Assembly (NCBI GenBank): GCA_028709385.1
Contig: JAQVXD010000008.1
Coordinates: forward strand, 1-64,000
Reading direction: 5' to 3'
Source: Fermentimonas sp.
Lineage (GTDB): Bacteria > Bacteroidota > Bacteroidia > Bacteroidales > Dysgonomonadaceae
Length of the DNA stretch: 64,000 nt
Shown here piece after piece: positions 34,627 through 63,702 of the stretch. A program made the position numbers and the translations under genes. Positions within the stretch are counted from its first letter, which is position 1, and each line of letters starts with the position of its first letter. The notes under the pieces were generated by a model that was given only the letters and a program-made list of their open reading frames with translations, did not search any database and was not told the origin of the DNA.

Positions 34627-34642
34627 TCCGTTTTTAATCTTC

Positions 34643-37327: not shown

Positions 37328-38266
37328 ATGCTTAGATATAACGAAACTAGATTTATAAAATCACCTTTCAATTCAGAATCAGAATTGGAACAAGTTGTAA
37401 TTGATAATTATGAATACCTATTCGGTCCAAATTCATATTATTTGCCAAAAACTTTAATAAGAACAGGTGATGGTAATGGCACAATACCGGATGGATATGC
37501 TATCGATTTAGGACTAAGGAAATGGTATATTGTAGAGGCAGAATTAATGCATCATAGTGTTTGGAATCATATTGTACCTCAGGTAACTAAACAGATTATT
37601 GCTTCTAAGCAGAGTTCAACAAAACAGTTATTAGAAGATTTATCAGTTGATAAATACCAAACTGATCCTTACACAAAGGAAAAATTCGAAGAATTAAATA
37701 TTGCCGAAATTAACGTACGACAAGTAGTAAGAAATATATTGGAGACTGATCCAATTATAGGTATCCCGATTGATGGAGTGACAAAAGATATTAATGATTG
37801 GGCGAATACTTTAGAGTATACAGTCAAACTTTGGGTAATCAATAAATATGTTGAGTTTAATAATCCCACAAATATCATATGGGAATTTCCTGAAGAACAG
37901 AGACCCACGTTAGATACAGAAAAAGCTAATGAAAATCAAAGCCCCGGTTATAGTATTGCACAATACGATGTTGATCTAAACGATTTAATAAATGGAGGTT
38001 TACTTACTATTGGTGAAAAACTTTATATGTCATACAAACCTAAAAACGGACAGTTACACAATTATGAGGCTTTTGTTTTAGAGGATGGATCACTTGAAGT
38101 ATTAGGTCAACACTACAGCAGTCCTTCGTATGCCGCTTTAGCAGGTATACAAGATGCAGGCAGTGATAGAAAAACAGTTAATGGTTGGACTTCTTGGAGA
38201 AATTCCGACAACAGAACTCTTGCAGACTTGAGAGATCAATTCCTAAACTCAGTACCGCTTCCTTGA
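37328..38266 (+). CDS. PD-(D/E)XK-like nuclease-fold protein with C-terminal RAMA-like domain
   Basis: The 312-residue protein has an N-terminal alpha/beta region (about 15-95) with Glu20-Glu21, then PDGYAIDLGLRKWYIVEAEL (Asp60, Glu70, Glu72). This resembles the D-x(n)-E-x-K nuclease core, but with Glu in place of Lys. A helical middle follows. A C-terminal domain (about 213-305) has LINGGLLTIGEKLY, a dG-x-L strand, SSPSYAAL and NGWTSWR, fitting the RAMA domain that accompanies restriction and adenine-methylase proteins and may sense DNA modification. It is convergent with the defence operon, 13 bases from its end. Activity is uncertain. Confidence 0.7.
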   Translation: MLRYNETRFIKSPFNSESELEQVVIDNYEYLFGPNSYYLPKTLIRTGDGNGTIPDGYAIDLGLRKWYIVEAELMHHSVWNHIVPQVTKQIIASKQSSTKQLLEDLSVDKYQTDPYTKEKFEELNIAEINVRQVVRNILETDPIIGIPIDGVTKDINDWANTLEYTVKLWVINKYVEFNNPTNIIWEFPEEQRPTLDTEKANENQSPGYSIAQYDVDLNDLINGGLLTIGEKLYMSYKPKNGQLHNYEAFVLEDGSLEVLGQHYSSPSYAALAGIQDAGSDRKTVNGWTSWRNSDNRTLADLRDQFLNSVPLP

Positions 38267-38279: not shown

Positions 38280-40550
38280 CTATTTAAGAAGCACCGGATA
38301 CCAATTAGAAAGTTTTTCCATAATTGAAATTCCTTCCTCCACAAAATCTCTTCCTTCGATATGTTTGATTAAACAGTCGTATATTTCAATATCTTCCTGT
38401 TCTTTGATTATATTATAATTTTCCACGGAAAACCCCATTTTCGTTAATTTAGATTCCAAGATTCCCAAAATATGCCATCCATCCTCTCTCATATCCATTT
38501 CTACAGAGTTAGAGATCTTAGATAGGATAAAAGAACTTCCTCCAAATTTATCCAGATAGAAGTAATATTTCTCACTAATCTTGAGTTCCAGAATGCGATG
38601 AATTAGTTTCCATGCAACATTGTTTTCTGAGTAATATGTACTTTGTAATGCTATTGCATCTAGATAACCCTTAGTCTCATCAAAAGGTTTGTCATATGTC
38701 ACACCTGGGTAGTAAATGTAGCCATACCTCCATTCTTGATACGCTACAGTTATCAAATCTGCATACTTAATTGTATAATATCTCCAGTGTTCAGTATATG
38801 TGTTATTTAGATTGCATTCCTCAATTGGTAATGAAGTGTCAATCTTATCAAAAGTTTCCATAATCCGATTTCTGTCATCAAAATCATGAAAACCTGTAAA
38901 ATTCCTCCAGGATCCTGTTACTATTCCAAAGTATCGAAAAGCAGGTCTGTTCGTCATAGCCATAGAATAGTCACCGAAATATAGTAGTGCTGAGCGTCGT
39001 TTGTGCTCCTCTCTTTTCCAGCCACCTGTCACTTCGAAGAAATACTTTGCTTTATCCAAACGCTCTTTTAATGCAGCAACAAATGTAACGTCACTTAGAT
39101 TAAGCTTGTCATCTTCAGAAAGACCCACAGCAAAAGCCGATAGAGTGGCATTAATCTCAGAAATATCTTCATACTCGTATAATGACTCCCAGACGGCACG
39201 ATTTCGTTCCTTCTCTTGCTCCTCTTTCCATGATCCTTCGCTGAGCTTTGGGTCATTATGTTTAAGGAGTCTCCCTTTCATAACATTCTCTACATCCTTA
39301 AGTAGATTTGTCATTTCTTTTTCACGAATCTGATAACTACTATTATTAATGAGATTTCTTACATGGCGGTATCTAAAGAAAAATTCTTTATTATTCAAAT
39401 CCTTATAAAGACCTATAATTATAGCATATAGGGCTAATATACTATTGTATTGAAAATTAGCACTTACAGCTTCTTTAATAAGACTCTTGTAATCGTTTCT
39501 AAGTTTCTCCGGTATTTTATCTTTACCATCCACCAAAGTGTCAAAAACAAATTTCATTGCCTCTATGCGCCTAGAATTGGCCATGTTGGAATCAATAAAT
39601 TCGTCATCCAGTTCTTTAAACTGAGGTCTCTGCCTACCTGATATGTAATCAAAAGTGCGGAATAGATGCTTAAAGAAATTCATATATGCTGAGTCAATGA
39701 CTTTCAATTCTTCAGTATAATCAAGAGCTTCCCAGATGAATTGAATCCATTTAGTGTCCAGAGAAATCACTATTTTATTGGCATATTTATTCCCAAACTT
39801 ACTATGTTTACCAATTCGCTTGTGTATCTTGGCTTTAAAAATTTCAAATGATGTCAATGGTTTACCACGTGAGTTCATCTTATTGTAAAGATCATCCGAG
39901 AGATCAAATACACCGAAATCCAGCATATCAAAGTTGATAGGGCAATCCTCGGAAGTTAGCTTCTGCCAAATGTCATTCATACCGTAAAATTTAATATGAA
40001 TTCGATTAAGCACTACCATCATAGACATGATAGAAGGATCGCTAAAGAAGGAACCTCTAAATTCATCTAAATTTATTAAGTAAGAACTAAATAGTATTGC
40101 ATTTTTCCCTGTAGGATCGCATTTTATCAGTTCAGCAAGTTCCTGATGCTTTTTGATAAGGAGATTTTGGCAGAAAGATATTGTAGCATTTCGTGTTGCA
40201 TAGCTAAAACCACTTAACTTTTTAAATTCCTCTTCACTGGCTTCCGGCTCTGCTATTAATGCAGCATAAAAATGAAGTAAATAAAGTGTTGTAAGTCGTT
40301 GTTGTCCGTCTAGTGGCATAAATTCCTTTGCTCTAGACTCACTTCCATATACGAAGTCTAGTGTCTCTTCTTCACCGGTATCAAAAGCATTCTTAAAGGT
40401 TTCCAGCATATTATTAAGTACCATGTCAGTCTTCTCTGTTTCGGCACCATAAATGTAATCTCTCTGGATTGTAGGGATTTTAATACTTTTACTATCTTGC
40501 AATAATCCCCAGAATGTCTCTTTTTTTCCAATTGATGTATTATTCTTCAT
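38280..40550 (-). CDS. DUF262 (GmrS/ParB-like NTPase) protein without HNH domain
   Basis: The 756-residue protein begins with the DUF262 core: IPTIQRDYIYG near residue 24, DGQQRLTTLYLLHF near 78 and the later NKMNSRGKPLTSFEIFKAKI (cited as NSRGKPLTSFE) near 220. This core binds and hydrolyses NTPs in type IV restriction factors such as GmrSD. The long helical C-terminal part (about 300-756) shows no DUF1524 HNH motif that I can find. It follows the HNH-bearing DUF262 gene by 8 bases and ends the operon. A non-nuclease partner or regulator role is likely. Confidence 0.82.
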   Translation of the reverse strand: MKNNTSIGKKETFWGLLQDSKSIKIPTIQRDYIYGAETEKTDMVLNNMLETFKNAFDTGEEETLDFVYGSESRAKEFMPLDGQQRLTTLYLLHFYAALIAEPEASEEEFKKLSGFSYATRNATISFCQNLLIKKHQELAELIKCDPTGKNAILFSSYLINLDEFRGSFFSDPSIMSMMVVLNRIHIKFYGMNDIWQKLTSEDCPINFDMLDFGVFDLSDDLYNKMNSRGKPLTSFEIFKAKIHKRIGKHSKFGNKYANKIVISLDTKWIQFIWEALDYTEELKVIDSAYMNFFKHLFRTFDYISGRQRPQFKELDDEFIDSNMANSRRIEAMKFVFDTLVDGKDKIPEKLRNDYKSLIKEAVSANFQYNSILALYAIIIGLYKDLNNKEFFFRYRHVRNLINNSSYQIREKEMTNLLKDVENVMKGRLLKHNDPKLSEGSWKEEQEKERNRAVWESLYEYEDISEINATLSAFAVGLSEDDKLNLSDVTFVAALKERLDKAKYFFEVTGGWKREEHKRRSALLYFGDYSMAMTNRPAFRYFGIVTGSWRNFTGFHDFDDRNRIMETFDKIDTSLPIEECNLNNTYTEHWRYYTIKYADLITVAYQEWRYGYIYYPGVTYDKPFDETKGYLDAIALQSTYYSENNVAWKLIHRILELKISEKYYFYLDKFGGSSFILSKISNSVEMDMREDGWHILGILESKLTKMGFSVENYNIIKEQEDIEIYDCLIKHIEGRDFVEEGISIMEKLSNWYPVLLK

Positions 40551-40558
40551 AGTATTTC

Positions 40559-42547
40559 TTATTCAAAAGCATCTTTACTAATATAATCTTTAAGTTTATC
40601 TTTTATGTCATTGTAGTACAATTCACGGTCTTTTTGAGACCAAGAATGGACCTGCATTATATCGTTATCATAAAGCTTTAGGAATACCTTTCGGGTACAA
40701 ATTGGAACATACTTATTGCCCCCTAGTTCTTTACATATTTTTTGTCTTTTAACCTCAAATGGCGATTTACCTACCATTGAGTTTTGCCCAAAGTCAAGAA
40801 GTGTCAGATTAGAAAGTTGGTGCATTGGCTTAGTTTTGTCAGCTTTAAAATCCAACTTGTTATAAAATCCAACAACATCGTTAAAAATTGCTTTGATATT
40901 GTCGAACATAAAATTCTTACTCTTGCATAGTGGTTCTTTTTGTCCTACAGGAATACTATAAGCATTTTCAAGCTCTGATATAACGCTATCCTTCTCACTT
41001 ATCAATTTGGTATTACCAAGTGAAATCTTCTTTAATGCCTTAAGGTTGTATCCAATCCATTCATACCAAGATTCCTTCTTGTTTTCAGGCAGAGAATCGG
41101 AGTTTATAGCGTGAATATGTTCAAGTGTCCAAGTTCTTTCCACATACTCATCCCCTACAGTATAATATCTAAATTGATTAAAAGAAAAGAAATTACCTCT
41201 TTCTTGTAAGCGAGTAGTTTCAACATTGTAGAGAATTAAAAGTCTCTTCAAATATTCATAATCCTTATTATTTTCATAGCTTAGATTATCTATAGTTTTG
41301 TTGTCTTCTTTAGGGAGTTTCATACTCTCAATAACCAGATCTTCAACTTTTTTCTCTACGTCTTTCTTGCCATCATTAACATCCAATAAAAAACATATTA
41401 CATCATCCTCCGATCCATCACGTGCAATTGCATTTAGGAATCCAATGAGGTGGTACAGATTGCGATTACGATACCAATACTGAAGCTTATCAAATGCTAT
41501 CAAAATTCTCTCCCAAGTTTTCCATGCATTTAGATCCAGTTCTATCAAATTCTTAAAGTAGAGGTAAGTATATAAACTATCCTCCTTATGTAATTTACTT
41601 TCAGTTGGTTTAGCTTTTTGCGAAGCATATTTACCACTCATCAAGTCAAAAAGTAAGCCAATTGAATTGATACCTGTATCTTTACGCCTAGTCAAGAAGG
41701 ATTGAAACTCTGTATCTTTCATCTGTTGTTCAAGTTCATCCCACTTTTCATTAATACTGCTCTGTAAGTGTATCCTTCGCTGTCTGATAATCTCAGCACG
41801 CATAGTTTCATGAAGATCTTCAAACTCTCCCACGTCAAATTCTGCTTCACTACTTAAAAAAAGTGAGCGGATCAGCTCTGAGCACGAAAGCTCTACTTTG
41901 AGCGAATTCATACGATTAAATATATCGTGAGGAGCCTTATCTTCAAATGTTTCATACCATACAACCTGTATCGACTTATCACTATTAATGTCATTATAAA
42001 AGTATTGACCAAATAGTGAAAGACGACTTGGCACAGCTGCAAACCAGTCCAGCACAACTCTTGCAACATTATAGATATATTTCGAATCTATAAATTGGCT
42101 CCAACCATTATTATTTTCATCAATTATAAGTTTACCCTCATTATCAGAAATAACACTTATACTGTCAAAAATACCTTGCATTTCCGGTCTAGTGGCATAG
42201 CGGATAGTGTAACTGTGATTTTTGATGGGAGTCAATGGATTTCTATTTAGCTGATCAAAAATTTTCATAATAATTAATAGAGTGCATAGCCTCTGTTGTC
42301 CATCAATTATTTCATACCACTCTTCATCATCTATCTTTATCCCTTTTAGCACGATTGGTTGGAGACAGTAAAACTGTCCTCTTGTATTTCCGGAGAAATA
42401 CTCAGCTAAGTCATTAAGCAAATCCTTAACTTGTTTTTCTTCCCATCTGTATCCTCTCTGATACTCCGGGATATAATACTTATTGTCAAGCAGTTCAGGT
42501 AAAGCTCGACGTCTCATAATGTTTTCTCTAAATTCAGGCATGGACAT
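40559..42547 (-). CDS. DUF262-DUF1524 HNH protein (GmrSD-like type IV restriction factor)
   Basis: Predicted NTP-dependent nuclease that cuts modified DNA. The 662 residues contain an N-terminal DUF262 domain with IPEYQRGYRWEEKQV (near 32), IIDGQQRLCTLLIIM (near 82) and FNRMNSLKVELSCSELI (near 210). The C-terminal DUF1524 HNH-type nuclease has WTLEHIHAIN near 475 and LSNLTLLDFGQNSMVGKSPF (cited as NLTLL near 580 with Asn and Lys following). All expected motifs are present. It is 30 bases after the UvrD-type helicase gene and 8 bases before the second DUF262 gene. Confidence 0.87.
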   Translation of the reverse strand: MSMPEFRENIMRRRALPELLDNKYYIPEYQRGYRWEEKQVKDLLNDLAEYFSGNTRGQFYCLQPIVLKGIKIDDEEWYEIIDGQQRLCTLLIIMKIFDQLNRNPLTPIKNHSYTIRYATRPEMQGIFDSISVISDNEGKLIIDENNNGWSQFIDSKYIYNVARVVLDWFAAVPSRLSLFGQYFYNDINSDKSIQVVWYETFEDKAPHDIFNRMNSLKVELSCSELIRSLFLSSEAEFDVGEFEDLHETMRAEIIRQRRIHLQSSINEKWDELEQQMKDTEFQSFLTRRKDTGINSIGLLFDLMSGKYASQKAKPTESKLHKEDSLYTYLYFKNLIELDLNAWKTWERILIAFDKLQYWYRNRNLYHLIGFLNAIARDGSEDDVICFLLDVNDGKKDVEKKVEDLVIESMKLPKEDNKTIDNLSYENNKDYEYLKRLLILYNVETTRLQERGNFFSFNQFRYYTVGDEYVERTWTLEHIHAINSDSLPENKKESWYEWIGYNLKALKKISLGNTKLISEKDSVISELENAYSIPVGQKEPLCKSKNFMFDNIKAIFNDVVGFYNKLDFKADKTKPMHQLSNLTLLDFGQNSMVGKSPFEVKRQKICKELGGNKYVPICTRKVFLKLYDNDIMQVHSWSQKDRELYYNDIKDKLKDYISKDAFE

Positions 42548-42577
42548 TTATGATTTATATTAATTACAACAGTAATA

Positions 42578-44662
42578 TTATATCTTCACCAACTCACTCT
42601 TCTCTCCAATTCCACTTATAACTAATCGTTGAATAGCACGACTAGAAGCAACATAAAAGAGTGATTTTTCTTTTTTCAATATCTCTTGCTTCTCAACTTC
42701 TGTTAGCGAGTTGAAGTTGTATGGCAAAAAGGGCAGAGTTCGTTTATTGACATCCGTGAGGAAGACATGCTTAAATTCCAATCCTTTTATACCATGAAAG
42801 GTTGTTAGTCTTACACCTTCGTTATTAGGATTTAATAAGTCCCTTGTTATGTAAGGCATTCCTTCCTGATGCAGTTTGTTTGTAAAATCTTTGACTGAAT
42901 CTCTGGTTCGTGCTGCAATAACTATCTCGTTATAATACACACCTTTTTCTATTAGATTTGTTATTTCTTCAAATACAAAGTCAAGCTCTTTTTGTTTGTC
43001 ATCAAACACTTTATATTCCGGTTTAACACCATGGAACAGGGATAAGTATCCTGTTTTATCCTCTTTGCCACCATCAAAATCATCAAACTCCTCATCTTGG
43101 ATTATGGATATTGCCAACTTCTTAATCTCTTCTGTTGTACGGTAATTGATTCTTAATCGCTTACTTCTTTGTCCTCTAATATTGATGCCGGATCTTGAAA
43201 ATACAATTTTCTTGTTGAATATATTCTGTAATGGATCACCTACCATAAACAGATCATTTACTCCCTCTTTTACAAGTGAACGAATAAAATTTAACTCTAC
43301 ATTAGAAAAGTCCTGTAGCTCATCAACAATAACATGAGAAAAAACAGAAATATTTTGTTCATTAAGATAACTACTTACTAAATTATATATTTCCTCTTTG
43401 TAGAGTAAGTTCTGATTTTTCCTCTCTACATTAAAAGCTTCAAAAACCTCCCATAGCTCAATTCTCTGCCTTCTGGATATAGCTCTGCCTCTTCCAACTC
43501 TACTTGCTTTTAAGTAATCCTGCAGAGTCTGCACATTTTGAGTGAGAATAACATCATCAAATTCACTTTTTAGAAATTCCTCATCATAAGCCACAAGTTG
43601 TTCATCTAAGAAATTACTCCAAAGATCTCTATCAGACTTAACATTACTCAATCCAATGATTCTGTCGTTTGATTCAATTAACCTGTACTCATTAGCAAGT
43701 TCAAAAGCAAGTGCATCAATATTTTCAATCCTATACGTACCACTCTTAACTTTCAATTCGGCTGCCAAACTCTCCAAGTTTTTACTTAGCTCTTTCGTGA
43801 AGGTCGTAAATAATATTGGTTTACCATTAGTTTTATTTTCAGCCAAATATTTAAGTCGATGCAATGCAACAACAGTCTTACCAGTTCCTGCACCACCTGA
43901 TAATTTCACAGCACCGTTAAAGTCACGATTTACTAATGATGATTGTGAAGGGTGTAAGTAATATTTCCATTTTTGCAAAGGACCTTGCAAAGCTTCGTTA
44001 AATAATACATCATCAGTTAGTTCAAAGAAAGATCTTGCGTTGTTTTTGGAGTTCAACTCATCATCACTTTCCGTTTCAAGACCATTTTTAATCTCTGATT
44101 TTAAGGATTCAATATTAGCACCGTCAAGTAAATAAAATAAATTCTCAAAAGCATCATTAGGAAGATAATCCATCATATCTTCAAGAGCTGAAAAATTATT
44201 AATATATAATACTGACGGGACCAGTGCCTGTGGCACACCAATCTCAAGCAAATCTTTGTAACCATATTTACCCATAAATAGAGGAGATACTGCAGAATCA
44301 ACCTGTTTCTCTGCAATTATTTCCACAGATTCATCAATAGTAAACACTTGATAAGCTTTGGTTTGCTCGTTCCAGTCAATAACTTTGTTTTTGGCCCATT
44401 CCATTGCATCGTCGTGATTATCAATCCACACGAGAAGGTATACATTCGAAGCTTTCACCTCTTTAATAATCGCCCTGTATTTATCATCAACACGTGCAGT
44501 TCTTAGACTCTGGTCTTTAAAAGTACTTATCGATTCAAGATTTATTGCAGCTGATTTAGAATCAGTCCTAAACTTGCTTATAAATCCAGTAACCTTAGTT
44601 TGTGTAGTTTTATTCAGCTTTAAAAAAGCATCCCAAAATCGTTCATATATAAATAGCTTCAT
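42578..44662 (-). CDS. RelE-fold domain fused to UvrD/Rep-type superfamily 1 helicase
   Basis: The first 100 residues match a RelE/HigB-type fold: LRTARVDDKYRAIIKE then YLLVWIDNHDDAMEWA. From about 240 an SF1A helicase follows with Walker A GGAGTGKTVVALHRL (near 257), Walker B VIVDELQDFS, RINYRTTEEIK, motif V TTFHGIKGLEFKHVFLTD and motif VI LFYVASSRAIQRL. Length is 694. RelE toxins cleave mRNA on ribosomes, but fused copies may instead serve as binding modules. No cognate antitoxin gene is next to it. It lies 26 bases after the DUF1998 helicase gene. Confidence 0.85.
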   Translation of the reverse strand: MKLFIYERFWDAFLKLNKTTQTKVTGFISKFRTDSKSAAINLESISTFKDQSLRTARVDDKYRAIIKEVKASNVYLLVWIDNHDDAMEWAKNKVIDWNEQTKAYQVFTIDESVEIIAEKQVDSAVSPLFMGKYGYKDLLEIGVPQALVPSVLYINNFSALEDMMDYLPNDAFENLFYLLDGANIESLKSEIKNGLETESDDELNSKNNARSFFELTDDVLFNEALQGPLQKWKYYLHPSQSSLVNRDFNGAVKLSGGAGTGKTVVALHRLKYLAENKTNGKPILFTTFTKELSKNLESLAAELKVKSGTYRIENIDALAFELANEYRLIESNDRIIGLSNVKSDRDLWSNFLDEQLVAYDEEFLKSEFDDVILTQNVQTLQDYLKASRVGRGRAISRRQRIELWEVFEAFNVERKNQNLLYKEEIYNLVSSYLNEQNISVFSHVIVDELQDFSNVELNFIRSLVKEGVNDLFMVGDPLQNIFNKKIVFSRSGINIRGQRSKRLRINYRTTEEIKKLAISIIQDEEFDDFDGGKEDKTGYLSLFHGVKPEYKVFDDKQKELDFVFEEITNLIEKGVYYNEIVIAARTRDSVKDFTNKLHQEGMPYITRDLLNPNNEGVRLTTFHGIKGLEFKHVFLTDVNKRTLPFLPYNFNSLTEVEKQEILKKEKSLFYVASSRAIQRLVISGIGEKSELVKI

Positions 44663-44688
44663 TTCTATTAGATTATTTCAAGTAATAA

Positions 44689-47600
44689 TTATATTAAATC
44701 AACATCTCCGGGTTCAATAATTTTATACCCATGTTCCTCAAAAATTCGCCTACTTTCATCTGAAAACGGATTCACCACAACCTTTATATTACCGAAAACC
44801 AAGTCTGCATCTGCAATTACTTCACCCTGTTCATCAACAAGCGAGTCAAGGTAATTGATATTCTCCATAGTGATAATATTCTTATCAACCGCTTTCTTGA
44901 TCAGGTCATGATATTCGGATTCATATAATGGTAGTATTTCTGCAACAAGATCCAACTCTTCATCTGTTATTTCAATTGAAACTTCACTCGACTTTCTTTT
45001 TAAGAAATTTGCAGACTGAAATATATTAAATAACGACCAAAATTGCTGCCATTCATTTTTATCAACATCTTTAGTGTCACTCAACTCTAAATTATGTAAA
45101 ACCTCTTTCTTTTTAAAGTTTACCCAGATCCTCCAATCTGCAAACTTAAAATTGTTCTGACCTTCAACCGGAATCAATCCATTATAATCTTTTATTAAGT
45201 TTTGTATGATATAATTATCCTCAATAGTATCACCTGAAATTAGTTTATCAATATCTTCCGGATTATAAGATGGTGAAAAGATTTCACTAGTCCATGAAAC
45301 TAAGAAAGTAAAATGAGAAACTGGAAATGGTTCAATAATTGGGTATGCAAGTAAACTAATTAAACGGATAACATTAGAAAAACCATTAGATAAATTTATC
45401 TTCTCATGATCCCTTGTTAGGTAGGGGAGCAATTTAGTCAAATAGTTAGAAGCAAAATTCTGATGATACATCATAAATAAATCATCTTTCACATCACCTT
45501 CTTTGTTCAACCATCTTTCAAAGTAGTCCAAATCTTCCCAAGTTAAAGTCCACACCTTAAACCAACTATTACTGGTTATAGCTTTTCGAATTGCAATATC
45601 CTTCTCAAAAACATTATGCTCCTTAGATGCGTGAAACTGGAACCCATCCAGATAAAGTGCAATTCTTGGGATTTCCTTTCTGTACTCTTTACCTTTATAA
45701 TCATATTTTATACAGACTATTAAAAAATCTACCCGTGTACTGTATTCAATACCGTCCTTAGGACCTAACACCACTTGAGGTCTTATTTGATAAATTGCAT
45801 TAACATCGCCTGTTGTAATTTCGATTTCATAATATGGAATACCGTGGAAATTCTTTTCTGAAAATTTACAACTCTCATCTTTTTCACTCCATTTTTCAAC
45901 TAAGTTAATAAAACGATCTTCCAATTCCGACTCTTCAATTCTACCGGTATTGGTTACATTTGTTAAGCCTCTGTTATTCTTTTCCCAGCTTTCTGTTTGC
46001 TTATAAATTTTGCTAAACCATTCTTCGGCTCTCTCTCTGCTTAAACCATCTCTTTTATACTGATTTCCGTATGAATATATACACCTATAGCAGCCGTCAT
46101 GCCCATTGTGTTGACAGGTGCAATCTCTGATAGACTCGTAGCTGTTTTTTAACAATTGAGTAAAGTTTTCACTGCTAAACAGCTCTTCTAAATAACCTGA
46201 GCCACCTGGTATTGTGTCATAAAGCAATAAGAACCTGTCAAACCTGCTTGTATGTTGATTAAACTCCTTATAATCCATTATTTTTATATGGCTAGGATTT
46301 CCTTTGAAATACCTCTTTAATCCAAGTTCCAAACCAGCTTGAAACATTCTGATATCAGCTTCTGTGTTAAATTTCTGAACAGGAAGTATAATCTTCAAAA
46401 TTTCAGTATTAAATTCTCTAAAGAGATAAATCTCCTCGAAAACTTCGTCAGATTGGTTTTCATAAACCTTGTTTCTATGCTTACAATAACCGTAGTGAAA
46501 ATCTTTTGCTTCGTTTATTAAATGATTAGATGAAACCGACTTACCACAATGCTTACAGGTTACAAACCCCTTAGTCATCACTTCCTGATCGTTTACTTTC
46601 AGCCTTCTTGCATCGATAACGTCCTGTCTGCCGTAATTGATAGTAGTTATTGTTGCATTACTAACAAATTCAATGCCGAAAGGTATTTCTTTCAATACCC
46701 ATGCGCCATTAGAAGTACTATTGGCAAAATTAACGTGTTGAATAATTTGGTACAACCTGCTATCCCTGTCGTCGTTGTTATCATCAAGTTTAGCCTGTGA
46801 TGAGGTGATATAAGAGCGTACAGCTGTCAATTTTACAAATTCGTGTATATTAGATGCAGAACTCCATGATACATCACCACATTTAGGGCAATTACCGGTT
46901 TTAGATAAACTGTCTATCTCAATATAATCACATTTAGAACAAAATCTTTTCCTATGTTTATTCTTTTCATCCCAGTCGAATGTGTTAACGCCGGAAATCT
47001 CGAACCTATACCCCTGTGTGTAAAAGTAGTTCTCTGGAGCCAACTCTCTAATTGCTTGTGAAGCAGGACGAGTAATTTCATAATCCTTATCTACCCCTAC
47101 ATTAGTAGCACCCTCGCCATCCATTTGCCAAATATGCGCATTAAGCTGCACACCCGTTTCAGGAAAAGCATAATTGGGTAATACTCCTACATTGGTTAAA
47201 TGCTCTAATGTAAGTCTTTTATTAATACTTCTTTTAATGCCTAAAATGCTCTTTTTTGCTTTAGCATACTCCTCCACAAGTGGATCACCTTGGGCAAGTT
47301 TAAGAACACTAATCTCCTCATCTAAAGCATTTAATTTACTCTGCATTTCATTAAACTCTTCCTGAATTTTGATGAAAACCGATAGTAGTTGCTCATAAAA
47401 TAATCCAGAGTCAATACTATCCTCAATCTCTTTAAACGCCCTCTCACGTACAGACGAAGTATATTGTACAATGAAATTATCAAGTAAAGAATCTCTATTA
47501 CTCTTTATAAACGAAATAAACCTATTAATAAAGAAAAATTCATTTGTTATCTTTTGTTGATGAAGTTTTAAATCACCAATAGTATTTGGAATAATATTCT

Positions 47601-50967: not shown

Positions 50968-50981
50968 GTTAATTTAAATTA

Positions 50982-55622: not shown

Positions 55623-55639
55623 TTTGATTCTAATTGAAA

Positions 55640-58600
55640 TTATTCCTTAAACTTCTTTTCAAAAAATGCCCACGCTTTCCTATAATCTTCTACACGATCT
55701 TGTTTGGTAAACGGAGCATAATAAGTCACCTTATCACCATAGTAGAGCTCAGATTTAGTAATTGTATATTCATACCTCTCACCCTCTTTCATATCTTTAG
55801 CCAATTCCCAGTCCGGGCGATCAAGCCCTACACCTACTAATCCTTTACTACAAGTAAAAACAATATTTCCCTTTGCATCATACCAGGTATCATCTTCATT
55901 CTGTTGTAGAACCGGGAATTGAATGTCATACATCAATATCAACTCATCTAAGCTGATATCTAAAGCCATTGCAGTAATAACATCTATCTCAACAAGAGCT
56001 TGTCTTCTCTCAAAATAATTGCGTAAAGGAATATCCCAACTCCAGTTTGGTGTTAGTGTTTCAAATGGTTTTAATTTTTTATCTTCTATACTCCATCGTT
56101 CAGAGTTGAAATTTTTACTGTAGTTGTCTTCCCAAAGAGGAGCATAGTATTTATTTAAGCAATTGAGTTGAAGTGTCCGAACAAAAAGGGAGTTGTGATA
56201 CTTTTTATCAACACCCAGTGGAAGTTTACTTAATGTTTCGTCATATAAATTAGATTTTCCGATTGTCTTTAAATAAAAATCATAAACCAAAGAATCTGTA
56301 AGTGCGTTGAACTCAATTAAAATTCTTTGATCTCTGAAAATAATTGAAATTAAACCATTAATATGTGCAGTTTTTGGTGGTATGATTGCTCCCGAAAGTG
56401 TTCTTTCACTTGCTGAACCAATCATTTTACGAAAAGCTACTTTATAATAATCTAACCAATTGTCGAAATTACCATCTTTTAATTCAAAACCCTTTATAGT
56501 TGAACCATACCCAGCATTAACATTTAATGGTACATAGTTAGTTCGTGCAACATAACTCTCATCAATTTTACTAAAATTGATTATATCATAATGAGAGTTT
56601 AATGTGCACATCTCCCTTGGTGTTTTATACATTGGATTTCCTACAAAGACATGTGGACCAGAGTATATCATCTCATAGACTTCAATATTAGGATATATTG
56701 TTTTTCTTTCAATAATTGAATCATTGACTGCATTAACTTCATTCCATCCATCAGTTATTTTAGTTTGATAATTTTTTATAGTCGAGTTGAATTTGCCAAT
56801 CTTTTCTATTATTTCAATAATTTCCTGTGCATGAATAGTTACTAACTTAGCGCCTTCCCAATCATCACTGTCTTCAAAAGTGCGAGCTAATATTTTTAAT
56901 ACATCTTCATTAATTTCTACTATTCGATGTAAATGAGGCAATAAGTTCCATTCCATTTTTTCCGTATTTTCATTCATTACTTTATAGCCGTGTAATTGAC
57001 CAGACCCTGAATGAATAAAACATCCATCAATAGTAGAAGGATGAAATAAATTTGAGATTGAATAAAAGTTTATTTCCTTTTTATTTCCTGTATAAACGTT
57101 AATAGAATATTTTGTGTGATGATCTACTTCAGCAAATAATACAAGCTCATTAACAAACTGAAAATGGTATTTTAATCGTGGATACACTTCCTTACGCAAT
57201 GCATAACCATTAGGATCATCATATATTCCTTCCGGGTGTAGTAAACCCATATAGCCTTTTTCTGAGATCCAATGTAACCCATTTTCAAGTATGCACTTAT
57301 ATAAGTTGCTTCTATGCCCATTTAATAATGAATAATTTTGATATGAACCAATAAATTGTTTTAAAATCTCAGAGTTTATAAGTTCTTCTATATAAATATA
57401 TTTAAGCTCTTTATTAACTTTAAACAATTCAGTAGTTAATTTTTTTATTTTAGGTGAGGTGAACTTTTTAACTAAAACTTCAGGATAAAATTCTGAAACT
57501 ACACCACCTTCATCAAATGTTATTTCAACCCACGGAGGATTACCTACAACCACATCAAATCCATTCTTCTCTCTATAAACTTCAATGAATTCAAGCTCAT
57601 AGTGGAAAAATTTATATTGCTCGGAATATTGTTTTACCAAATCTGCTCTTTTATCGACAAAAAGCGAAGATGGGTTACCTTTTAGTTTTTCTGTTATTTC
57701 TCTTTCACGCTCACGTTTATCTTTTCGATAATCTCTAACAATTGTTGAAGTATTTTCTGAAACTAAATTGGCTTCATCCTGTTCATATTCAATTAAATCA
57801 ATATTAATTATCTTAGTGAGATCCTGATACCACTCGCTCCTTGTCGGGAGTTCCGCAGCATCACGTACATCCCAAAACCAAAGTGCACACCAGTAATCCA
57901 TAATAAGTTTAAGCTTATAGTATGGTGCGTTACTTTTAAATCTATTTTCGGCAAACTGCTGTTTCTGATCATAGCTGAATCCTGCAAAGTCTAATTTTTG
58001 TTCTTGATTAGGATTTCCAAAAAAGTCAGTATTAATCTCAGTTATCAAAGAAATATTCTTCTGCATTTCATAATGCTCCAGAAGTAGTTTATCAATTGCT
58101 ATTGATAGTTTTTGTAACAATTTGTATTCATCTCCTCGTAATGGTTTCGTGAATTCTTTCTTCCATTCAGTTACTCTTTTTGCTTCTACAGGATACTTAT
58201 CTTTTAACAATCGTATGGATGCAGAAGAAGCCATGTTTTGGTCGGGCAACAAGAAATGATAAATCTCATCATTCCGTCTGTTAATTCCTTTATCTCCAAA
58301 GATAAGATGCTTTGGTGCTTTTTCCCACCATTTCTTTGTTTTGTGTCCACGTCCCTGCGGTTCAAATGAAAAATCCCTGTGATTATAAACCTTAAGCCAT
58401 GAGCCTATTACTGCATTGCCTACCCCTAGACGATAACCAAAGAATGGGGTTTGCATTTCTTTGTGTATAACATTTAACCATAATGAAAGCTTCCCAAGCT
58501 CAATAGCAGTTGGATTGATGTCAACGCCATAAACGTTGTTAAGAGCTATGTATGCTTTAATCTTTTGCAGTTCATCTTTATATTTATTTGGATCAACATG

Positions 58601-60451
58601 AGTATTAAGTTCTTTTGTTCGATAGTCAAGATAGGCTTTTGCTATCTGATTAATAGCTTCATTATGGAAAGCGGCTGCACCCATGGCAGGTTCCAATATC
58701 TTAAGATCTAGCAAATCCAGAGCCTGCATTTCTCCCTTATCCAGCTTCTCCAGAATAGGTTTTAATGTGTACTTTACTGTTGTCTGGGTAAGTACTTCAG
58801 GTGTATAGTATGAAGCAGAGCTTTCTCTGTCTCTACCGCTCAGTCTATATATAAAAGTACCTTCAGGAATTATTCTCAACTCTTCCGAATCGTCTGCTAA
58901 TACTTCATAATAGACTTCACCATGTTCAAAATCATCAAGACGATGGCGAGGCACTAAAAAAGAGCCCTCTGATCTTATCATCTCTTCAGAGGTTTTATTC
59001 CCGGTACGGTTTTTATGCACTTCTATATAATCAGTTTCTGCAAGTATTCCACGAAACGCAAGCAGACTTTCATAAACCGACCCAAGTTGGTTAATTCCAA
59101 GATTGGCATAAGATATTCTGCCACGGTTTTTATTGCGTTGCTTTTTAGAGAGTGAAAGTTCAATTATAACATCTTGCCACACTCTGTTCCTTATTTTTAC
59201 ATCACTTAAATAGTGAAGACTGTTTGGGCTGAATAACGGAGAGTCTAACTGACGTATTTTAAAACTTTTGCTGTCAGTGCTTTTTTCATCGTACCCCTCA
59301 TTGAGGAGTTCGAAAAGTTTATAAAGTGATTCATGAAAGAAAAATCCATTTAAAGATGATTCTGTTTGTAATGGAACCTGTTCCAGGTCTCTAAGCATTT
59401 CAAGAGAGTAACCTTTGTCATAAACTGCATCTCTGTTGGGTAATATATCAAGTTCTTCTCTTGATTCGGCGTAGAATAGGAAAAGAAGTCGATAAACCAT
59501 ATTCAAACAGTCATCTTTCAATTTAGATGCATCTATTTCGCTATATGACACGCCTTGCTTATTAAGGTAATATACTGCCTCATTGGCGATACTTTCAACT
59601 GCATGTATAACACCCTCTTTTAAGTCTTTAGTGACTTCATAAGCAGCTTTATGAGAATCCTCATCCAACTGTTCCATCAGTACTATGTCCGCCATAGGCG
59701 ACAGGAGGTCTTTTGATAGTAACAGATAAAAGAGAGATAAATAATCCTTATCTATAGATGCTTCATCAAATAGAACCTCTAAGTCTATTTGAAGGTATGA
59801 TCCTCTGAACCATTTTTCTGATTCAAGTAAAAAATATTGATTACCTGCACAAAGAAGTATATATTTTGGACGTCTGTGCTCTGCAAGCAAAAACAGTTTA
59901 CTTATTGCCTCGTTGATAATCATCGGAGAAATAGTCAACTCTTCAGGAACTTTAAACACATCTTCCCAATGTTTACGGTGATATTTCTGTTCGCCTTGAT
60001 AGCGAGGTTCTTCATTAGGATCTACATTGTAACTTTGTTCAAACAAACCATCCGGTTCTTCATCACCTGTTTTGATCAGGGCGTGCATCTCCATAATCAT
60101 CATGTGAACTTTATCTCCGCGATATAATATTTGTCTTACTGGCAATACTGAGTTGCCATTAATTGGATATAAGTTATCGTAATTAGTTTTATCTGCATCG
60201 TAACCAAGTGCTTTTAGTACCTTTGTGTGAAAATTATGAGATAAGTTTACTCTGTCTTTTACACGCAGATGATTTTCTACAAACTGCTGTTTTAATTTGA
60301 AATAGTCAGGTTTTAGCTGTGTTATTTGTTGCTGAAACTCTTTTAGAGCATCTCTGCTGTAGCCTGATTTTTCAATAACTTTTTTTGCAAAATCTTCATC
60401 AAAATAATTTGATGCAAAATACTCACCTATATTGTTTATAAATTTGATCAT
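55640..60451 (-). CDS. Large N6-adenine-type DNA methyltransferase (PglX/DrmMI/Eco57I-like)
   Basis: The 1603-residue protein carries a class I SAM-dependent methyltransferase core at about 550-1000. Motif I is EPAMGAAAFHNEAINQIA near 587 (usual form DPxxGSGxF), VDINPTAIELGKLSLWLN lies near 644 and the catalytic motif is VVGNPPW near 970. About 540 residues precede the core and 600 follow, probably for target recognition. The A-A-A replacement of the usual GSG is unusual but the main fold residues remain. No separate specificity subunit is present. It starts 7 bases after the SNF2 helicase gene, so the two are likely translationally coupled. Confidence 0.87.
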   Translation of the reverse strand: MIKFINNIGEYFASNYFDEDFAKKVIEKSGYSRDALKEFQQQITQLKPDYFKLKQQFVENHLRVKDRVNLSHNFHTKVLKALGYDADKTNYDNLYPINGNSVLPVRQILYRGDKVHMMIMEMHALIKTGDEEPDGLFEQSYNVDPNEEPRYQGEQKYHRKHWEDVFKVPEELTISPMIINEAISKLFLLAEHRRPKYILLCAGNQYFLLESEKWFRGSYLQIDLEVLFDEASIDKDYLSLFYLLLSKDLLSPMADIVLMEQLDEDSHKAAYEVTKDLKEGVIHAVESIANEAVYYLNKQGVSYSEIDASKLKDDCLNMVYRLLFLFYAESREELDILPNRDAVYDKGYSLEMLRDLEQVPLQTESSLNGFFFHESLYKLFELLNEGYDEKSTDSKSFKIRQLDSPLFSPNSLHYLSDVKIRNRVWQDVIIELSLSKKQRNKNRGRISYANLGINQLGSVYESLLAFRGILAETDYIEVHKNRTGNKTSEEMIRSEGSFLVPRHRLDDFEHGEVYYEVLADDSEELRIIPEGTFIYRLSGRDRESSASYYTPEVLTQTTVKYTLKPILEKLDKGEMQALDLLDLKILEPAMGAAAFHNEAINQIAKAYLDYRTKELNTHVDPNKYKDELQKIKAYIALNNVYGVDINPTAIELGKLSLWLNVIHKEMQTPFFGYRLGVGNAVIGSWLKVYNHRDFSFEPQGRGHKTKKWWEKAPKHLIFGDKGINRRNDEIYHFLLPDQNMASSASIRLLKDKYPVEAKRVTEWKKEFTKPLRGDEYKLLQKLSIAIDKLLLEHYEMQKNISLITEINTDFFGNPNQEQKLDFAGFSYDQKQQFAENRFKSNAPYYKLKLIMDYWCALWFWDVRDAAELPTRSEWYQDLTKIINIDLIEYEQDEANLVSENTSTIVRDYRKDKREREREITEKLKGNPSSLFVDKRADLVKQYSEQYKFFHYELEFIEVYREKNGFDVVVGNPPWVEITFDEGGVVSEFYPEVLVKKFTSPKIKKLTTELFKVNKELKYIYIEELINSEILKQFIGSYQNYSLLNGHRSNLYKCILENGLHWISEKGYMGLLHPEGIYDDPNGYALRKEVYPRLKYHFQFVNELVLFAEVDHHTKYSINVYTGNKKEINFYSISNLFHPSTIDGCFIHSGSGQLHGYKVMNENTEKMEWNLLPHLHRIVEINEDVLKILARTFEDSDDWEGAKLVTIHAQEIIEIIEKIGKFNSTIKNYQTKITDGWNEVNAVNDSIIERKTIYPNIEVYEMIYSGPHVFVGNPMYKTPREMCTLNSHYDIINFSKIDESYVARTNYVPLNVNAGYGSTIKGFELKDGNFDNWLDYYKVAFRKMIGSASERTLSGAIIPPKTAHINGLISIIFRDQRILIEFNALTDSLVYDFYLKTIGKSNLYDETLSKLPLGVDKKYHNSLFVRTLQLNCLNKYYAPLWEDNYSKNFNSERWSIEDKKLKPFETLTPNWSWDIPLRNYFERRQALVEIDVITAMALDISLDELILMYDIQFPVLQQNEDDTWYDAKGNIVFTCSKGLVGVGLDRPDWELAKDMKEGERYEYTITKSELYYGDKVTYYAPFTKQDRVEDYRKAWAFFEKKFKE

Positions 60452-60458
60452 GATACTG

Positions 60459-63404
60459 TTATTTGTTGTAGAAAACGGCTATTACTTTAAGGTATGGGTC
60501 GCCTTTCAAGCTGGTTAGATCTTGAAAATAACGACTTGAATTGTCAAGGATAGTTTGTATTTCAACCTCTTTATCTCTTTTCCTTTTTTTGATGTACCCA
60601 TATTCAGGTTTATCTGCAAATTCAATTTCTAGTTGACTTTCTTTGCTACGACGCCATTCATCCATTTTCTCTTTGTAGGAGACCATTTTCTCTTCCATCT
60701 CGTTCTGCACTTCCTGTTGTTTTTGGTCCATGTACAATATATGTCCATTATTAATTACATCAGGCAGCATCTTCTCAAGAAGCTTAATATCATCTTCTTT
60801 GATTTCCAGGGTATATTGATCTTCATTCAACTTATATTCAATAAGAAACTGACTAAAGGGAATCGGTCGTGAATACATAGAACCATCAAGATTCATAGAA
60901 ATCATAAAGAAGTCTGATACAATCGACTGTCCTAAGCTATTTGCAGATATTCCCTGTAAAAGATAGTGTGCTGTTCCTTTTGGAAGTCTGTTCAATTTTG
61001 AAACTAGTGCAACATCTTTGTCAACACTTGCTTCAAGTTGAGTCATTAAATAACTTATTATTGGGTGTAACTCATAAAGGACCTGAAATTGAGCCCATTC
61101 ACCTTTTCTTTTTCTCGCTTCACTGATTGAATTTTGAACAGTTTCTTTATCGAGAGAAAGCTGATAAACAGATCCTATCCTATTTGGTTTTGCCTCAGTA
61201 GGTATATCATACATTATTCTGTCAAGCTCTGGTGTGTTTTTCACCTCAAGCAAATCACCATCAAAGTATGCTGCATCATTCTCCAAATATCCATCACTTT
61301 TGAGTTGCATAATTAATGCTTCATAGTAGCTTTTGTCGTCAGGATACAGAGAAACACTCTTATCATAAATCTTATCAGTCTTTATTGGTGGTGTTGTATT
61401 ATTAAAAAGTGCATCCCAGGTTTCATCCTCTTTAAGGGACTGATCATTTTCTTCTAAGACAGTTTCATCCTGTGTTGAAATAGCTTCAATTACCAAATTT
61501 TCTTCGGCAGTTGCATCATAAAGCTTATATACCGACGCTGCATCGCCGAGAGCTTTATAAACTTCGTCTTCTTTCTCTTTGAGCTTATTTACTATGTGTA
61601 AATCAACTTTCAGGCCCTCCAACTCAGAAGTGGTTACCATATAATGGATATAAGGTGTTTTTGTCTGACCATATCTGTCTATACGTCCGTTACGTTGTTC
61701 TAATGTTATAAGCGACCAAGGAATGTCATAATTAAACATGTGATTGCAATAGTAGTGTAGATTAACACCTTGAGAGCCTGCGTCAGAAGTGAGCAGGATG
61801 CGAAAATCAGAATCTTCCTTGCCAAAATCTTCTATTATACTCTGTTGCTCCATATCTGACAAAGATCCATGGAAAGCAGCAATCACTTTTTCTTCTAAAT
61901 TAAAATCATGTTGAAGCTTTACTTTCAAAGAATTTAAGGTTTCAATACGCTCTGCAAAAACAACTATGCGGAAATCGTTTTTTCTCCCGTTCCATTTAAG
62001 TTTAATGAGTTCATTTTTAAATGCATTATATTTAGCATCTTGTTTTAGCGAGATAATAGATTCAAGTTTTTCCTTTAATACATTTAACACCTCGATATTC
62101 TCCTCTACCAAATCATTAAAACCTTTAGATTGCTGAATTTTATCTATTCTATTTTCAACTGATTTAAGAGCTGCCTCGGGTGATGACATGTATGATTTAA
62201 ACAAACTTATTGCAAACAACAGATCTTTTTTCTGTTTTTTCTTATTTTTTGTTGTCCCCGTTTTTCCAAAAATATCTGTTGAAACTTCATTGTTTTCAAG
62301 AGAAAAATCCTCACCTTCTAATGCTGAGAGTGCAGTGAATTTTATATTTTGTTGCATCTCCAGAAAATCCTCCTCTGCCGGATTAAGGGGTGCATGTATT
62401 GATATTACTTCACGTTCCTGGAAGTTTGATTTTACAGTGGCATCGTCAATGTCGTTCTTAAATCTTCTTACATAATAGGGAAGTATGTTTTCTTTTGTAT
62501 AACTGCTCTCATCTTTGATTGCCAAGGGTTCAATCATATTAATTAAATTGGCAAAGTTCTCCTTTTTGCCATTGTGCGGAGTTGCTGAAGTCAGAATCAA
62601 AGATTCGCATTTAGTACTAAGCAATTGAGCGAGCCCTCCCCGGAGAGAGTCTGAATTGGCAACTGTATGACACTCGTCTATTACGATGATATCCCAGCGT
62701 GACTTTTCGATAAAGTGCTGATACTTGGCATTGTTTTTAAGAGTATCTATAGAAACAATTGTTTTATCGTAGTAGTCAAAAGGATTTTTATTAACAGGGA
62801 GTTCACTTTTTATTTTAGATATACCCTCTGAGTCGAGACGAACCAAAGGAATTGCAAACCGATTCCATATTTCTTGCTGAAATTGTCCTAGAATTGATTT
62901 AAGTGCTAAAACCATTATTCTTTTGCCTTTTCCTCTTTTTATCATTTCTGCAAGGAAAATACCTACCTCAATTGTTTTTCCTAAACCAACACCATCTGCT
63001 ATCAGCATACGTGGTCTTGGTAAATCGAAAGCTTTTAGTGTGGGCTCATACTGATATTTAGCTTCATTAAATGCTGCCTTATGGGCAATGGTAATGTATT
63101 TGCTGTAAACAGGTGAGTTGCGAATCTGATTTTCTATGAATAGTTTTGTTTTACGATATCCAAAATCTGTATCTGCTACTAACTTAGTATTTACAGGATC
63201 TAAAACTCGTATTTCAGAATCAATATTGGTGTCAAAAATAAACTGCTTAGCCTTTACCAGTTCAGATATACCTTCAACTTTGAGTATCCAGCTTCCTTTA
63301 TTTTCCTCAATGTCATTGATTATAAAATCTTCTCCTCTATTTGTTATTCTCTGACCGGGAGTGAAATTCATAGTAGATATATTCTGTCTATTATCAGGAC
63401 TCAT
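60459..63404 (-). CDS. SNF2/RapA-type helicase (DrmD-like)
   Basis: The 981-residue superfamily 2 protein has IADGVGLGKTIEVGIFLAE with Walker A at 136-144, DECH box VIDECHTVAN at 242-250 and LTSATPHNG. The C-terminal lobe contains ILLTSDAGSQGVNLHYY and QRNGRIDRYGQT near 560-610. A long charged helical tail (about 890-960) contains coiled coil. The arrangement resembles RapA and DISARM DrmD translocases acting on double-stranded DNA. It is the first gene of the seven-gene operon. The first ATG is used here; a second ATG 11 codons later (MNFTPGQ) is equally plausible. Confidence 0.87.
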   Translation of the reverse strand: MSPDNRQNISTMNFTPGQRITNRGEDFIINDIEENKGSWILKVEGISELVKAKQFIFDTNIDSEIRVLDPVNTKLVADTDFGYRKTKLFIENQIRNSPVYSKYITIAHKAAFNEAKYQYEPTLKAFDLPRPRMLIADGVGLGKTIEVGIFLAEMIKRGKGKRIMVLALKSILGQFQQEIWNRFAIPLVRLDSEGISKIKSELPVNKNPFDYYDKTIVSIDTLKNNAKYQHFIEKSRWDIIVIDECHTVANSDSLRGGLAQLLSTKCESLILTSATPHNGKKENFANLINMIEPLAIKDESSYTKENILPYYVRRFKNDIDDATVKSNFQEREVISIHAPLNPAEEDFLEMQQNIKFTALSALEGEDFSLENNEVSTDIFGKTGTTKNKKKQKKDLLFAISLFKSYMSSPEAALKSVENRIDKIQQSKGFNDLVEENIEVLNVLKEKLESIISLKQDAKYNAFKNELIKLKWNGRKNDFRIVVFAERIETLNSLKVKLQHDFNLEEKVIAAFHGSLSDMEQQSIIEDFGKEDSDFRILLTSDAGSQGVNLHYYCNHMFNYDIPWSLITLEQRNGRIDRYGQTKTPYIHYMVTTSELEGLKVDLHIVNKLKEKEDEVYKALGDAASVYKLYDATAEENLVIEAISTQDETVLEENDQSLKEDETWDALFNNTTPPIKTDKIYDKSVSLYPDDKSYYEALIMQLKSDGYLENDAAYFDGDLLEVKNTPELDRIMYDIPTEAKPNRIGSVYQLSLDKETVQNSISEARKRKGEWAQFQVLYELHPIISYLMTQLEASVDKDVALVSKLNRLPKGTAHYLLQGISANSLGQSIVSDFFMISMNLDGSMYSRPIPFSQFLIEYKLNEDQYTLEIKEDDIKLLEKMLPDVINNGHILYMDQKQQEVQNEMEEKMVSYKEKMDEWRRSKESQLEIEFADKPEYGYIKKRKRDKEVEIQTILDNSSRYFQDLTSLKGDPYLKVIAVFYNK

Positions 63405-63429
63405 TTTTATTTAATTTTATTACTGTTCA

Positions 63430-63460
63430 CAAATTTAATAAGAAAAGAGATAATATCAAT
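63430..63460 (-). promoter_or_regulatory. Candidate promoter of the seven-gene defence operon
   Basis: On the minus strand ATTG (63460-63457), a 19-base spacer and TAAATTTG (63437-63430) approximate TTTG / TAnnTTTG, 26 bases before the SNF2 helicase start. It is the only candidate I see for the operon. No internal promoter can be excluded. Confidence 0.55.
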
Positions 63461-63570
63461 TGTTATTAAATGTTTTAAGCCTTTACTGGAGTTACTAACT
63501 TTGCTGGGACCACACGATAAATTATTTTATATCCAATTACATATAAATCAAAATAAACCACCCTTATTAT

Positions 63571-63702
63571 ATGCTTTTAAATATAATTCCTTATAAAGCA
63601 GGTGTGGCACTTACGGTTATCAGTCTTACAAAAGTCAATCAGGTGTTGATGATGTTTGGGCATAAGTTAGTCCCCGTTAATCATAAAGAAATTGAAGAAT
63701 GA
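63571..63702 (+). pseudogene. hipB: Truncated hipB-like antitoxin remnant
   Basis: A 43-codon frame ends with TKVNQVLMMFGHKL, the conserved C-terminal block of HipB-type antitoxins. It is preceded by KAGVALTVIS, which looks like the middle of the helix-turn-helix, with the intervening segment deleted. The stop overlaps the hipA-like start as ATGA, the usual hipBA arrangement. The start codon and first half of the HTH are lost. Confidence 0.6.

Follow-up and report, generated by a model that had tools for sequence, protein, structure and literature searches.

A Fermentimonas ARMADA type II operon with a gene embedded between armB and armC and a probable TgvAB-like type IV pair

We analyzed a stretch of 64,000 nucleotides (the window) from a draft genome of Fermentimonas sp. 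(2.83 Mb, 88% complete), corresponding to bases 1-64000 of the 75,196-base contig JAQVXD010000008.1. Positions 38280-63404 hold seven minus-strand open reading frames (ORFs), numbered here in the order of transcription and separated by successive gaps of 7, 17, 14, 26, 30 and 8 bases (Table 1); the ORF list confirmed the strand, coordinates and gaps given in a preliminary description of this DNA. In our reading, which we hold with considerable confidence, the locus is an ARMADA type II operon (genes 1, 2, 4 and 5) with one embedded accessory gene (gene 3), followed by an independent TgvAB-like type IV module (genes 6 and 7). Sequence comparisons establish the identity of the core, its gene order and the conservation of its experimentally tested residues, the recurrence of the gene 3 family at the same position in other operons, and the occurrence of genes 6 and 7 as a pair elsewhere without ARMADA.

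The preliminary description is thereby supported in part. Its view of a defense-type locus with a DISARM- and Druantia-like core is borne out by PADLOC and Pfam matches, and the type IV-like character of its DUF262 genes by matches to GmrSD_N, but its boundaries, novelty and fixed linkage did not hold. It had found no single named system to fit the locus, whereas the core matches ARMADA type II as already described. A tempting seven-gene "new system" is corrected to a known core with two add-ons, and the gene 3 insertion, the slot that it occupies and the appended type IV pair make the locus a variant. Embedding of defense genes as such is also known (TgvAB; Payne et al. 2024, as cited in PMC11411939).

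The ARMADA type II core

ARMADA type II, as reported by Bell et al. (bioRxiv 2025; PMC12458937), comprises ArmA, a BrxHII/RapA-like helicase; ArmB, a PglX-like methyltransferase; ArmC, a YprA-like helicase with a C-terminal Vsr-type nuclease; and ArmD, a RelE-GajB-like helicase. According to the same report, all four genes are required and protection is direct and non-abortive. By order, domains and conserved residues, genes 1, 2, 4 and 5 of the window are armA, armB, armC and armD. The order was established by tblastn of the seven window proteins on fetched loci together with annotated regions. Genes 1-2-4-5 follow one another on plasmids of E. coli (L023), Klebsiella (L025) and Nostoc (L024) and in several genomes of the phylum sample, and genes 3, 6 and 7 gave no tblastn match in the stretches read of these loci. 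A second E. coli plasmid stretch (L026) begins inside gene 2 and shows genes 2-4-5. An ArmD homolog follows armC on the E. coli, Klebsiella and Nostoc plasmids as well as in other genomes. Since 1-2-4-5 occur as an ordered module matching ARMADA II, gene 5 is a core gene like 1, 2 and 4, and the earlier division into the first four and the last three genes has to be redrawn. Some armB-positive genomes lack the full core in the stretch read: no armD was found in G278. In G344 (L029/L030), armA and armB are accompanied by slot-like cargo, and neither armC nor armD was found in the stretch read; this is either a decayed operon or an unread rearrangement.

Eight residues have been mutated in the E. 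coli system (ArmA K136 and D236, ArmB G605 and N971, ArmC K110 and D234, ArmD K266 and D454); six of the eight mutations reportedly abolish protection, and ArmB G605A and ArmD D454N reduce it (PMC12458937). The proteins of the E. coli plasmid L023 carry all eight residues at identical numbers. All eight are also conserved in the window, as K143 and D243 of ArmA, G591 and N971 of ArmB (with a single NPPW motif, at residue 971), K108 and D239 of ArmC, and K262 and D447 of ArmD.

The domain calls of the preliminary description are supported by Pfam, PADLOC and NCBIfam, apart from the RelE part of gene 5, which is barely visible, and the GmrSD_C match of gene 6, which stays below the cut-off. The best PADLOC names for genes 1 to 4 are DrmD, REase_MTase_IIG, TmtA and DruE, with no full Hma or Druantia set among the matches listed. 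Gene 1 matches SNF2 and Helicase_C in Pfam, and BrxH and HmaA after DrmD in PADLOC. Gene 2 is an Eco57I-type methylase by Pfam; its PADLOC match to PDLC03614 is full-length (1641 bits), DrmMI matches score lower, and its identity to other armB products reaches 71%. Gene 4 matches DEAD, Helicase_C and MZB (DUF1998). Its assignment to the ArmC family rests on pairwise scores, 800 bits with ArmC of the E. coli plasmid L023 vs 125 bits with the DruE-like helicase of L025. In the C-terminal region of ArmC, D1747, D1774, H1779, D1790, R1794 and D1812 are invariant in 52 of 52 rows; a structure model of this region has a pLDDT of 81.9, and a sequence search of the Protein Data Bank (PDB) gave no credible match for it. 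Gene 5 matches UvrD in Pfam and, weakly, GajB in PADLOC. A RelE-like N-terminus has been described for the ArmD family (PMC12458937). RelE/ParE-type Pfam models match, weakly, a few of ten aligned ArmD members (best E-values 0.0025-0.021); the window protein matches none of them, and a PDB sequence search with its N-terminus gave nothing reliable, yet this N-terminus aligns with that of the E. coli plasmid ArmD.

On the Klebsiella plasmid (NZ_CP031815.1), ARMADA II is immediately preceded by genes for an STY4851/ECs_5259 family protein and the 2107-aa DruE-like helicase. The pair appears to be Druantia III-like, a name taken from the annotation of the neighbor. ARMADA II and Druantia III form a synergy pair in the ARMADA report (PMC12458937), which the arrangement in L025 resembles.

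A variable slot between armB and armC

In the E. coli-type order armC directly follows armB. In the window gene 3 intervenes. The preliminary description grouped it with the first four genes; by position and family it optionally fills a variable slot at the armB-armC junction (slot 1). To describe this slot, an ArmD alignment was scanned against 84,980 species genomes, in which at least 414 stretches encode relatives; the best 80 were kept as loci and, with 18 further regions (from 18 of 23 genomes with armB relatives) and three plasmid loci, made up the 101 loci tested. Both ends of the junction are visible in 45 of them, with 17 gaps of up to 60 nt, one of 61-300 nt and 27 above 300 nt; this sample favors insertions, as most of the 18 regions had been picked for an armB outside the 10-kb flank. 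Junctions within the 10-kb flanks alone number 14, 1 and 13 of 28 in the same classes, with the opposite bias, because inserts above approximately 3.6 kb hide armB. Since interrupted junctions are common, we did not treat contiguity of armB and armC as defining ARMADA II. In five loci (L076, L106, L145, L149 and L151) the longer gaps also or only contain opposite-strand ORFs. No mention of the slot was found in the parts consulted of the ARMADA preprint, term searches of its main text included, or of related ARMADA and Druantia literature.

Occupants were assigned by Pfam, PADLOC and pairwise similarity. The gene 3 family recurs in Kaistella (L138) and Bizionia (L139); in the metagenome-assembled genome (MAG) G402 armB is followed by a gene 3 relative and three more genes, and no armC was found on that contig as far as it was read. 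A second family of sacsin-type proteins, about 1,800-2,390 aa long and mostly with an SF1 helicase, comes after armB in six genomes (L140-L143, L152/L167 and L153/L166), with armC on another contig in the latter two; SACS is over the Pfam cut-off in two of the four members scanned. Other occupants are AbiEii with DUF6088, Schlafen-AlbA-type proteins, AAA proteins, Fic, and DUF262 proteins (L078, L097, L114, L145 and L146, and one of 750 aa in L147). Of the two DUF262 occupants scanned, GmrSD_C is over the cut-off in L097 and below it in L114. L097 also carries gajA-gajB-like (Gabija) genes downstream of armD, in the same operon as its slot 1 DUF262-HNH gene. The cyanobacterial genome G416 (L146, L079) has armB matches on two contigs, one of them with a DUF262 gene directly after armB.

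The distribution of slot states was followed on a tree of ArmD (87 rows, of which 53 carry a label), built by a quick method with long branches flagged; L052, L060 and L063 were each labeled from two contigs of the same genome and L077 from its armC side only, and a slot with mixed contents was counted under a single label. Seven slot states need 23 changes on this tree (minimum 6; shuffled mean 29.8; none of 200 shuffles as low), which indicates that they are partly inherited and often replaced; empty vs occupied slots need 12 changes. The tight clade around the window contains Kaistella with gene 3 and Proteiniphilum without it. Proteiniphilum (L150) is the closest relative with a readable junction (71% identity in ArmB), and its armB and armC lie 8 bases apart. 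The nearest row by ArmD is a Bacteroidales MAG (L042, 73%), whose short contig has no armB-armC junction.

Gene 3 itself matches SACS and NOV_C over the Pfam cut-offs and, over its full length, PADLOC TmtA (PDLC03964, 938 bits), for which no published description as a defense system was found; a PDB sequence search with gene 3 gave nothing reliable. Its N-terminus keeps the motifs E54-x3-N58 and GNKGLGF. In the NOV_C region D1443 and K1460 are invariant in six homologs, and position 1458 is E in five and D in one. DUF3883 has been called "a novel REase domain" (PMC3710099). On the basis of motif and family, the C-terminus is predicted to be a PD-(D/E)xK nuclease. Relatives are rare. At E <= 1e-20, four of the 395 genomes of the phylum sample have a match; one of the four is the genome of the window itself, and another (G166) matches in the N-terminus only. 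Among 375 class genomes there are two with a match at E <= 1e-60, again including the window's own; 27 plasmid records were retrieved with gene 3, none covering 80% of the query.

Alternatively, gene 3 could function as a fifth subunit of ARMADA, such as an ATP-driven gate or replacement nuclease on the ArmC complex, instead of being a self-contained embedded defense gene. The family follows armB in four genomes, with the armC junction seen in three (window, Kaistella and Bizionia), and a tree of six rows separates the four copies that follow armB from the other two with 100/100 support, although long branches meet there. The recurrence of the second sacsin-type family after armB in six further genomes points the same way. 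On the other hand, gene 3 is missing from Proteiniphilum and many others, and its identity to the Kaistella copy is 39%, far below that of the core genes (63-73%). The two copies outside ARMADA are a sacsin-type relative between the specificity and restriction genes of a type I restriction-modification (RM) operon in G335 (L005/L006) and a relative in G359, where the 19.6 kb read hold no ARMADA gene, so the family evidently works elsewhere as well. We consider a fifth subunit rather unlikely, though it is the alternative that fares best.

Interchangeable genes at the armB-armC junction are found in many ARMADA II operons, and the slot genes (two sacsin-type families, DUF262, Schlafen-AlbA-type and AbiEii-type) are candidate defense or anti-escape modules. 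As a tentative extension, for which we see perhaps one chance in three, ARMADA II may be a chassis with a dedicated docking position where unrelated defense genes repeatedly enter and leave, the sacsin-type ATPases with a nuclease-like tail having become ARMADA-dedicated effectors. If so, various methylation-based defenses would draw on a common pool of add-ons, since accessory genes of the sacsin/TmtA and DUF262 kinds also plug into type I RM operons.

The probable type IV pair and the surroundings of the operon

Genes 6 and 7 are probably a stand-alone two-gene type IV module of the TgvAB or GmrSD kind, as judged from domains, motifs and distribution. Gene 6 matches Pfam GmrSD_N with 101 bits and GmrSD_C with 21.0 bits (cut-off 23); gene 7 matches GmrSD_N with 70 bits, and no nuclease domain was found in it by Pfam, PADLOC or NCBIfam. 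Invariant in nine of nine aligned homologs of gene 6 are the DGQQR motif at 82, E476-H477, N580 and N589; in gene 7 the DGQQR motif at 81 and Y222xKxN226 are invariant in ten of ten. Searches of the 395-genome phylum sample with gene 7 (E <= 1e-15) gave eight other matches, all eight with a gene 6 homolog directly upstream on the same strand (split into two ORFs in G316). The eight genomes do not overlap with the nine other armB-positive genomes of the sample. At least three of the eight pairs (G202, G150 and G095) belong to type I RM operons by Pfam, preceded by hsdM and hsdS and followed by hsdR, and the one downstream neighbor scanned in G238 encodes a SIR2-type protein. A plasmid search with gene 7 yielded 17 records.

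The fixed association of the DUF262 genes with the core, as claimed earlier, was not seen in other operons: 60 of the 80 ARMADA loci extend 2 kb or more beyond armD, none of them with a DUF262 model match directly after it, and L106 has one weak match at 8.8 kb from armD. A PF03235 match is present in 34 of 50 ARMADA genomes searched; the pair lies on another contig in the ARMADA-bearing Proteiniphilum and about 50 kb away in the ARMADA-bearing Segatella. Two adjacent DUF262 genes are also found on the contig of the Aquibacillus locus L071 (L126, genome G411), about 27 kb upstream of the ARMADA II stretch.

In V. cholerae both TgvAB proteins are reported to be needed; they target phages with hypermodified cytosine and are encoded inside a type I RM operon, and tgvAB homologs are 17 times more frequent than the five-gene form (PMC11411939). 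Genes 6 and 7 might instead read the ArmB mark and be licensed by it, in one mark-dependent circuit, as SspE relies on the phosphorothioate mark of its own host (PMC9646914). Gene 6 does have weak SspE matches, and DUF262 genes also occupy slot 1 of other ARMADA operons; against this, the same pair is found where armB has no match in the genome and as part of type I RM operons, and TgvAB does not need its RM genes to act in E. coli, although its effect on several phages is then weaker (PMC11411939). We regard such a circuit as improbable and retain the view of an independent module.

The operon has a G+C content of 0.29-0.36. The left side is mostly at 0.37-0.43, yet already at 0.32-0.35 in 34001-38000. 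Scanning 50500-64000 for promoters and terminators gave counts close to those of shuffled sequence (73 vs 62.1, sd 7.1, and 6 vs 6.0, respectively). The genes around the operon are included in Table 1. The primase-helicase-type and DUF6371 genes to its right suggest that the operon may sit on a mobile element. On the left, the RAMA-domain gene is convergent with gene 7, 13 bases apart, and the N-terminus of its product resembles, by eye, a PD-(D/E)xK nuclease. Of 295 other phylum genomes, four have a match to the protein, and these include no armB-positive genome of the sample. We rejected this gene as a member of the system because it lies on the opposite strand and has no phmmer match in the 80 ARMADA loci.

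Table 1. Genes of the locus and neighboring features (positions as in the contig, whose first 64,000 bases are the window)
Feature	Position	Strand	Length (aa)	Assignment
Gene 1	60459..63404	-	981	armA, BrxHII/RapA-like SNF2 helicase
Gene 2	55640..60451	-	1603	armB, PglX-like N6-adenine-type DNA methyltransferase
Gene 3	50982..55622	-	1546	slot 1 accessory, sacsin-type ATPase with NOV_C/DUF3883, predicted PD-(D/E)xK nuclease
Gene 4	44689..50967	-	2092	armC, YprA/DruE-like helicase with DUF1998 and conserved C-terminal region
Gene 5	42578..44662	-	694	armD, putative RelE-like domain and GajB-like UvrD helicase
Gene 6	40559..42547	-	662	type IV pair gene a (probable), DUF262 and His-Me (DUF1524-like) nuclease
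Gene 7	38280..40550	-	756	type IV pair gene b (probable), DUF262 partner
Left neighbor	37328..38266	+	312	RAMA-domain protein (Pfam)
Left side	34643..35758			Fic/DOC family protein
Left side	31261..32892			BNR-repeat sialidase-like protein
Upstream of armA	63926..66205 (L009:3927-6206)	-	759	MACPF-domain protein
Right of window	69620..72510 (L009:9621-12511)			D5_N/DUF5906 primase-helicase-type gene and DUF6371 gene

Proposed function and comparison with known systems

In the mechanism that we propose, ArmB would mark host DNA with N6-methyladenine, and unmarked phage DNA would be translocated and processed by ArmA and ArmC, the latter using its putative C-terminal nuclease, with ArmD assisting. 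Gene 3 may act as an ATP-gated nuclease and second effector. Genes 6 and 7 would sense hypermodified cytosine through their DUF262 domains, with the His-Me nuclease of gene 6 cutting, and would cover those phages whose modified DNA escapes ARMADA. The preliminary description saw a contradiction between a self-marking methyltransferase and a nuclease that attacks modified DNA. Precedents without conflict have been reported, BREX with BrxU, an experimentally shown pairing of a methylation-based defense with a GmrSD enzyme (PMC8565348), and type I RM with TgvAB (PMC11411939), and no special specificity rule would be needed here because the marks presumably differ (adenine vs modified cytosine).

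Several observations weigh against the reading of a core with two self-contained add-ons. ATPases of the gene 3 kind usually read D-x-G at the motif where all six gene 3 homologs have N82 in place of the aspartate. A model of the gene 3 C-terminus, from three sequences, had a pLDDT of 47.9 and did not confirm a nuclease fold, and a Foldseek search with the ArmC C-terminal model gave no PDB match at E <= 0.001. Which base ArmB methylates and which modification genes 6 and 7 recognize are both inferred. The common strand and the gaps of 26, 30 and 8 bases leave co-transcription of all seven genes possible. Finally, tgvAB alone was reported to be 10- to 100-fold less protective against several phages than the five-gene cluster (PMC11411939), so the host operon and the pair may interact.

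The close spacing on one strand and the low G+C common to all genes would also suit one integrated seven-gene system, its proteins acting together and inherited as a unit. Comparison of loci led us to reject this as very improbable. The core exists without gene 3 and without genes 6 and 7, as in Proteiniphilum; genes 6 and 7 exist as a pair without the core; and the position directly after armD is free of DUF262 in the 60 loci compared. The seven-gene order that the preliminary description hoped to find conserved is thus split elsewhere; part-only homologous loci and a described type, either of which it had named as refuting its view, are what was found, with shifted boundaries.

A variant of DISARM, Druantia or Hma in place of ARMADA has next to no chance: DrmD and DruE are the best PADLOC names, with HmaA below DrmD for gene 1, but separate drmA and drmB and a PLD-domain drmC (Pfam) were not found, helicase and DUF1998 lying in one ORF as opposed to class 1 DISARM, HmaB and HmaC are missing from the complete PADLOC lists of genes 2, 3, 6 and 7, no DruH, DruA-D or other partner of DruE is among the PADLOC matches listed (best 25 of 30, 40 and 39 for genes 1, 4 and 5, respectively), and gene 4 scores far higher with ArmC than with the DruE-like helicase. 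Gabija was likewise rejected, GajA not being among the matches listed and those of gene 5 to GajB being weak.

Closer parallels exist for the add-ons. PADLOC TmtA matches gene 3 over its full length, and a gene 3 relative likewise lies inside a type I RM operon. GmrSD-like genes are found inside a methylase-helicase operon in HEC-05 and HEC-06 (Payne et al. 2024, cited in PMC11411939), whose host is Hma, whereas genes 2 and 3 of the window have no HmaB or HmaC match. The BREX and BrxU island of pEFER also unites a methylation-based defense with a GmrSD enzyme, covering unmodified and modified phages, but BrxU is a single protein with BREX, while the window has a pair with ARMADA (PMC8565348). 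The likeness to TgvAB of V. cholerae VPI-2 (VC1766/VC1767; PMC11411939) is one of gene architecture: two adjacent genes, each encoding DUF262 with DGQQR, and a His-Me nuclease in one of the two. Like TgvAB, relatives of the window pair are embedded in type I RM operons, where hsdS and hsdR flank them; in the window, by contrast, the nuclease-bearing gene comes first and the host operon is ARMADA. With ARMADA II itself, as reported in the preprint (PMC12458937), the locus shares the four genes, their order, their helicase and methyltransferase domains, the single strand and the eight functionally tested residues. It differs in the 4.6-kb gene between armB and armC, which are separated by 2 nt in the E. 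coli plasmid operons L023 and L026, and in the type IV pair that follows armD.

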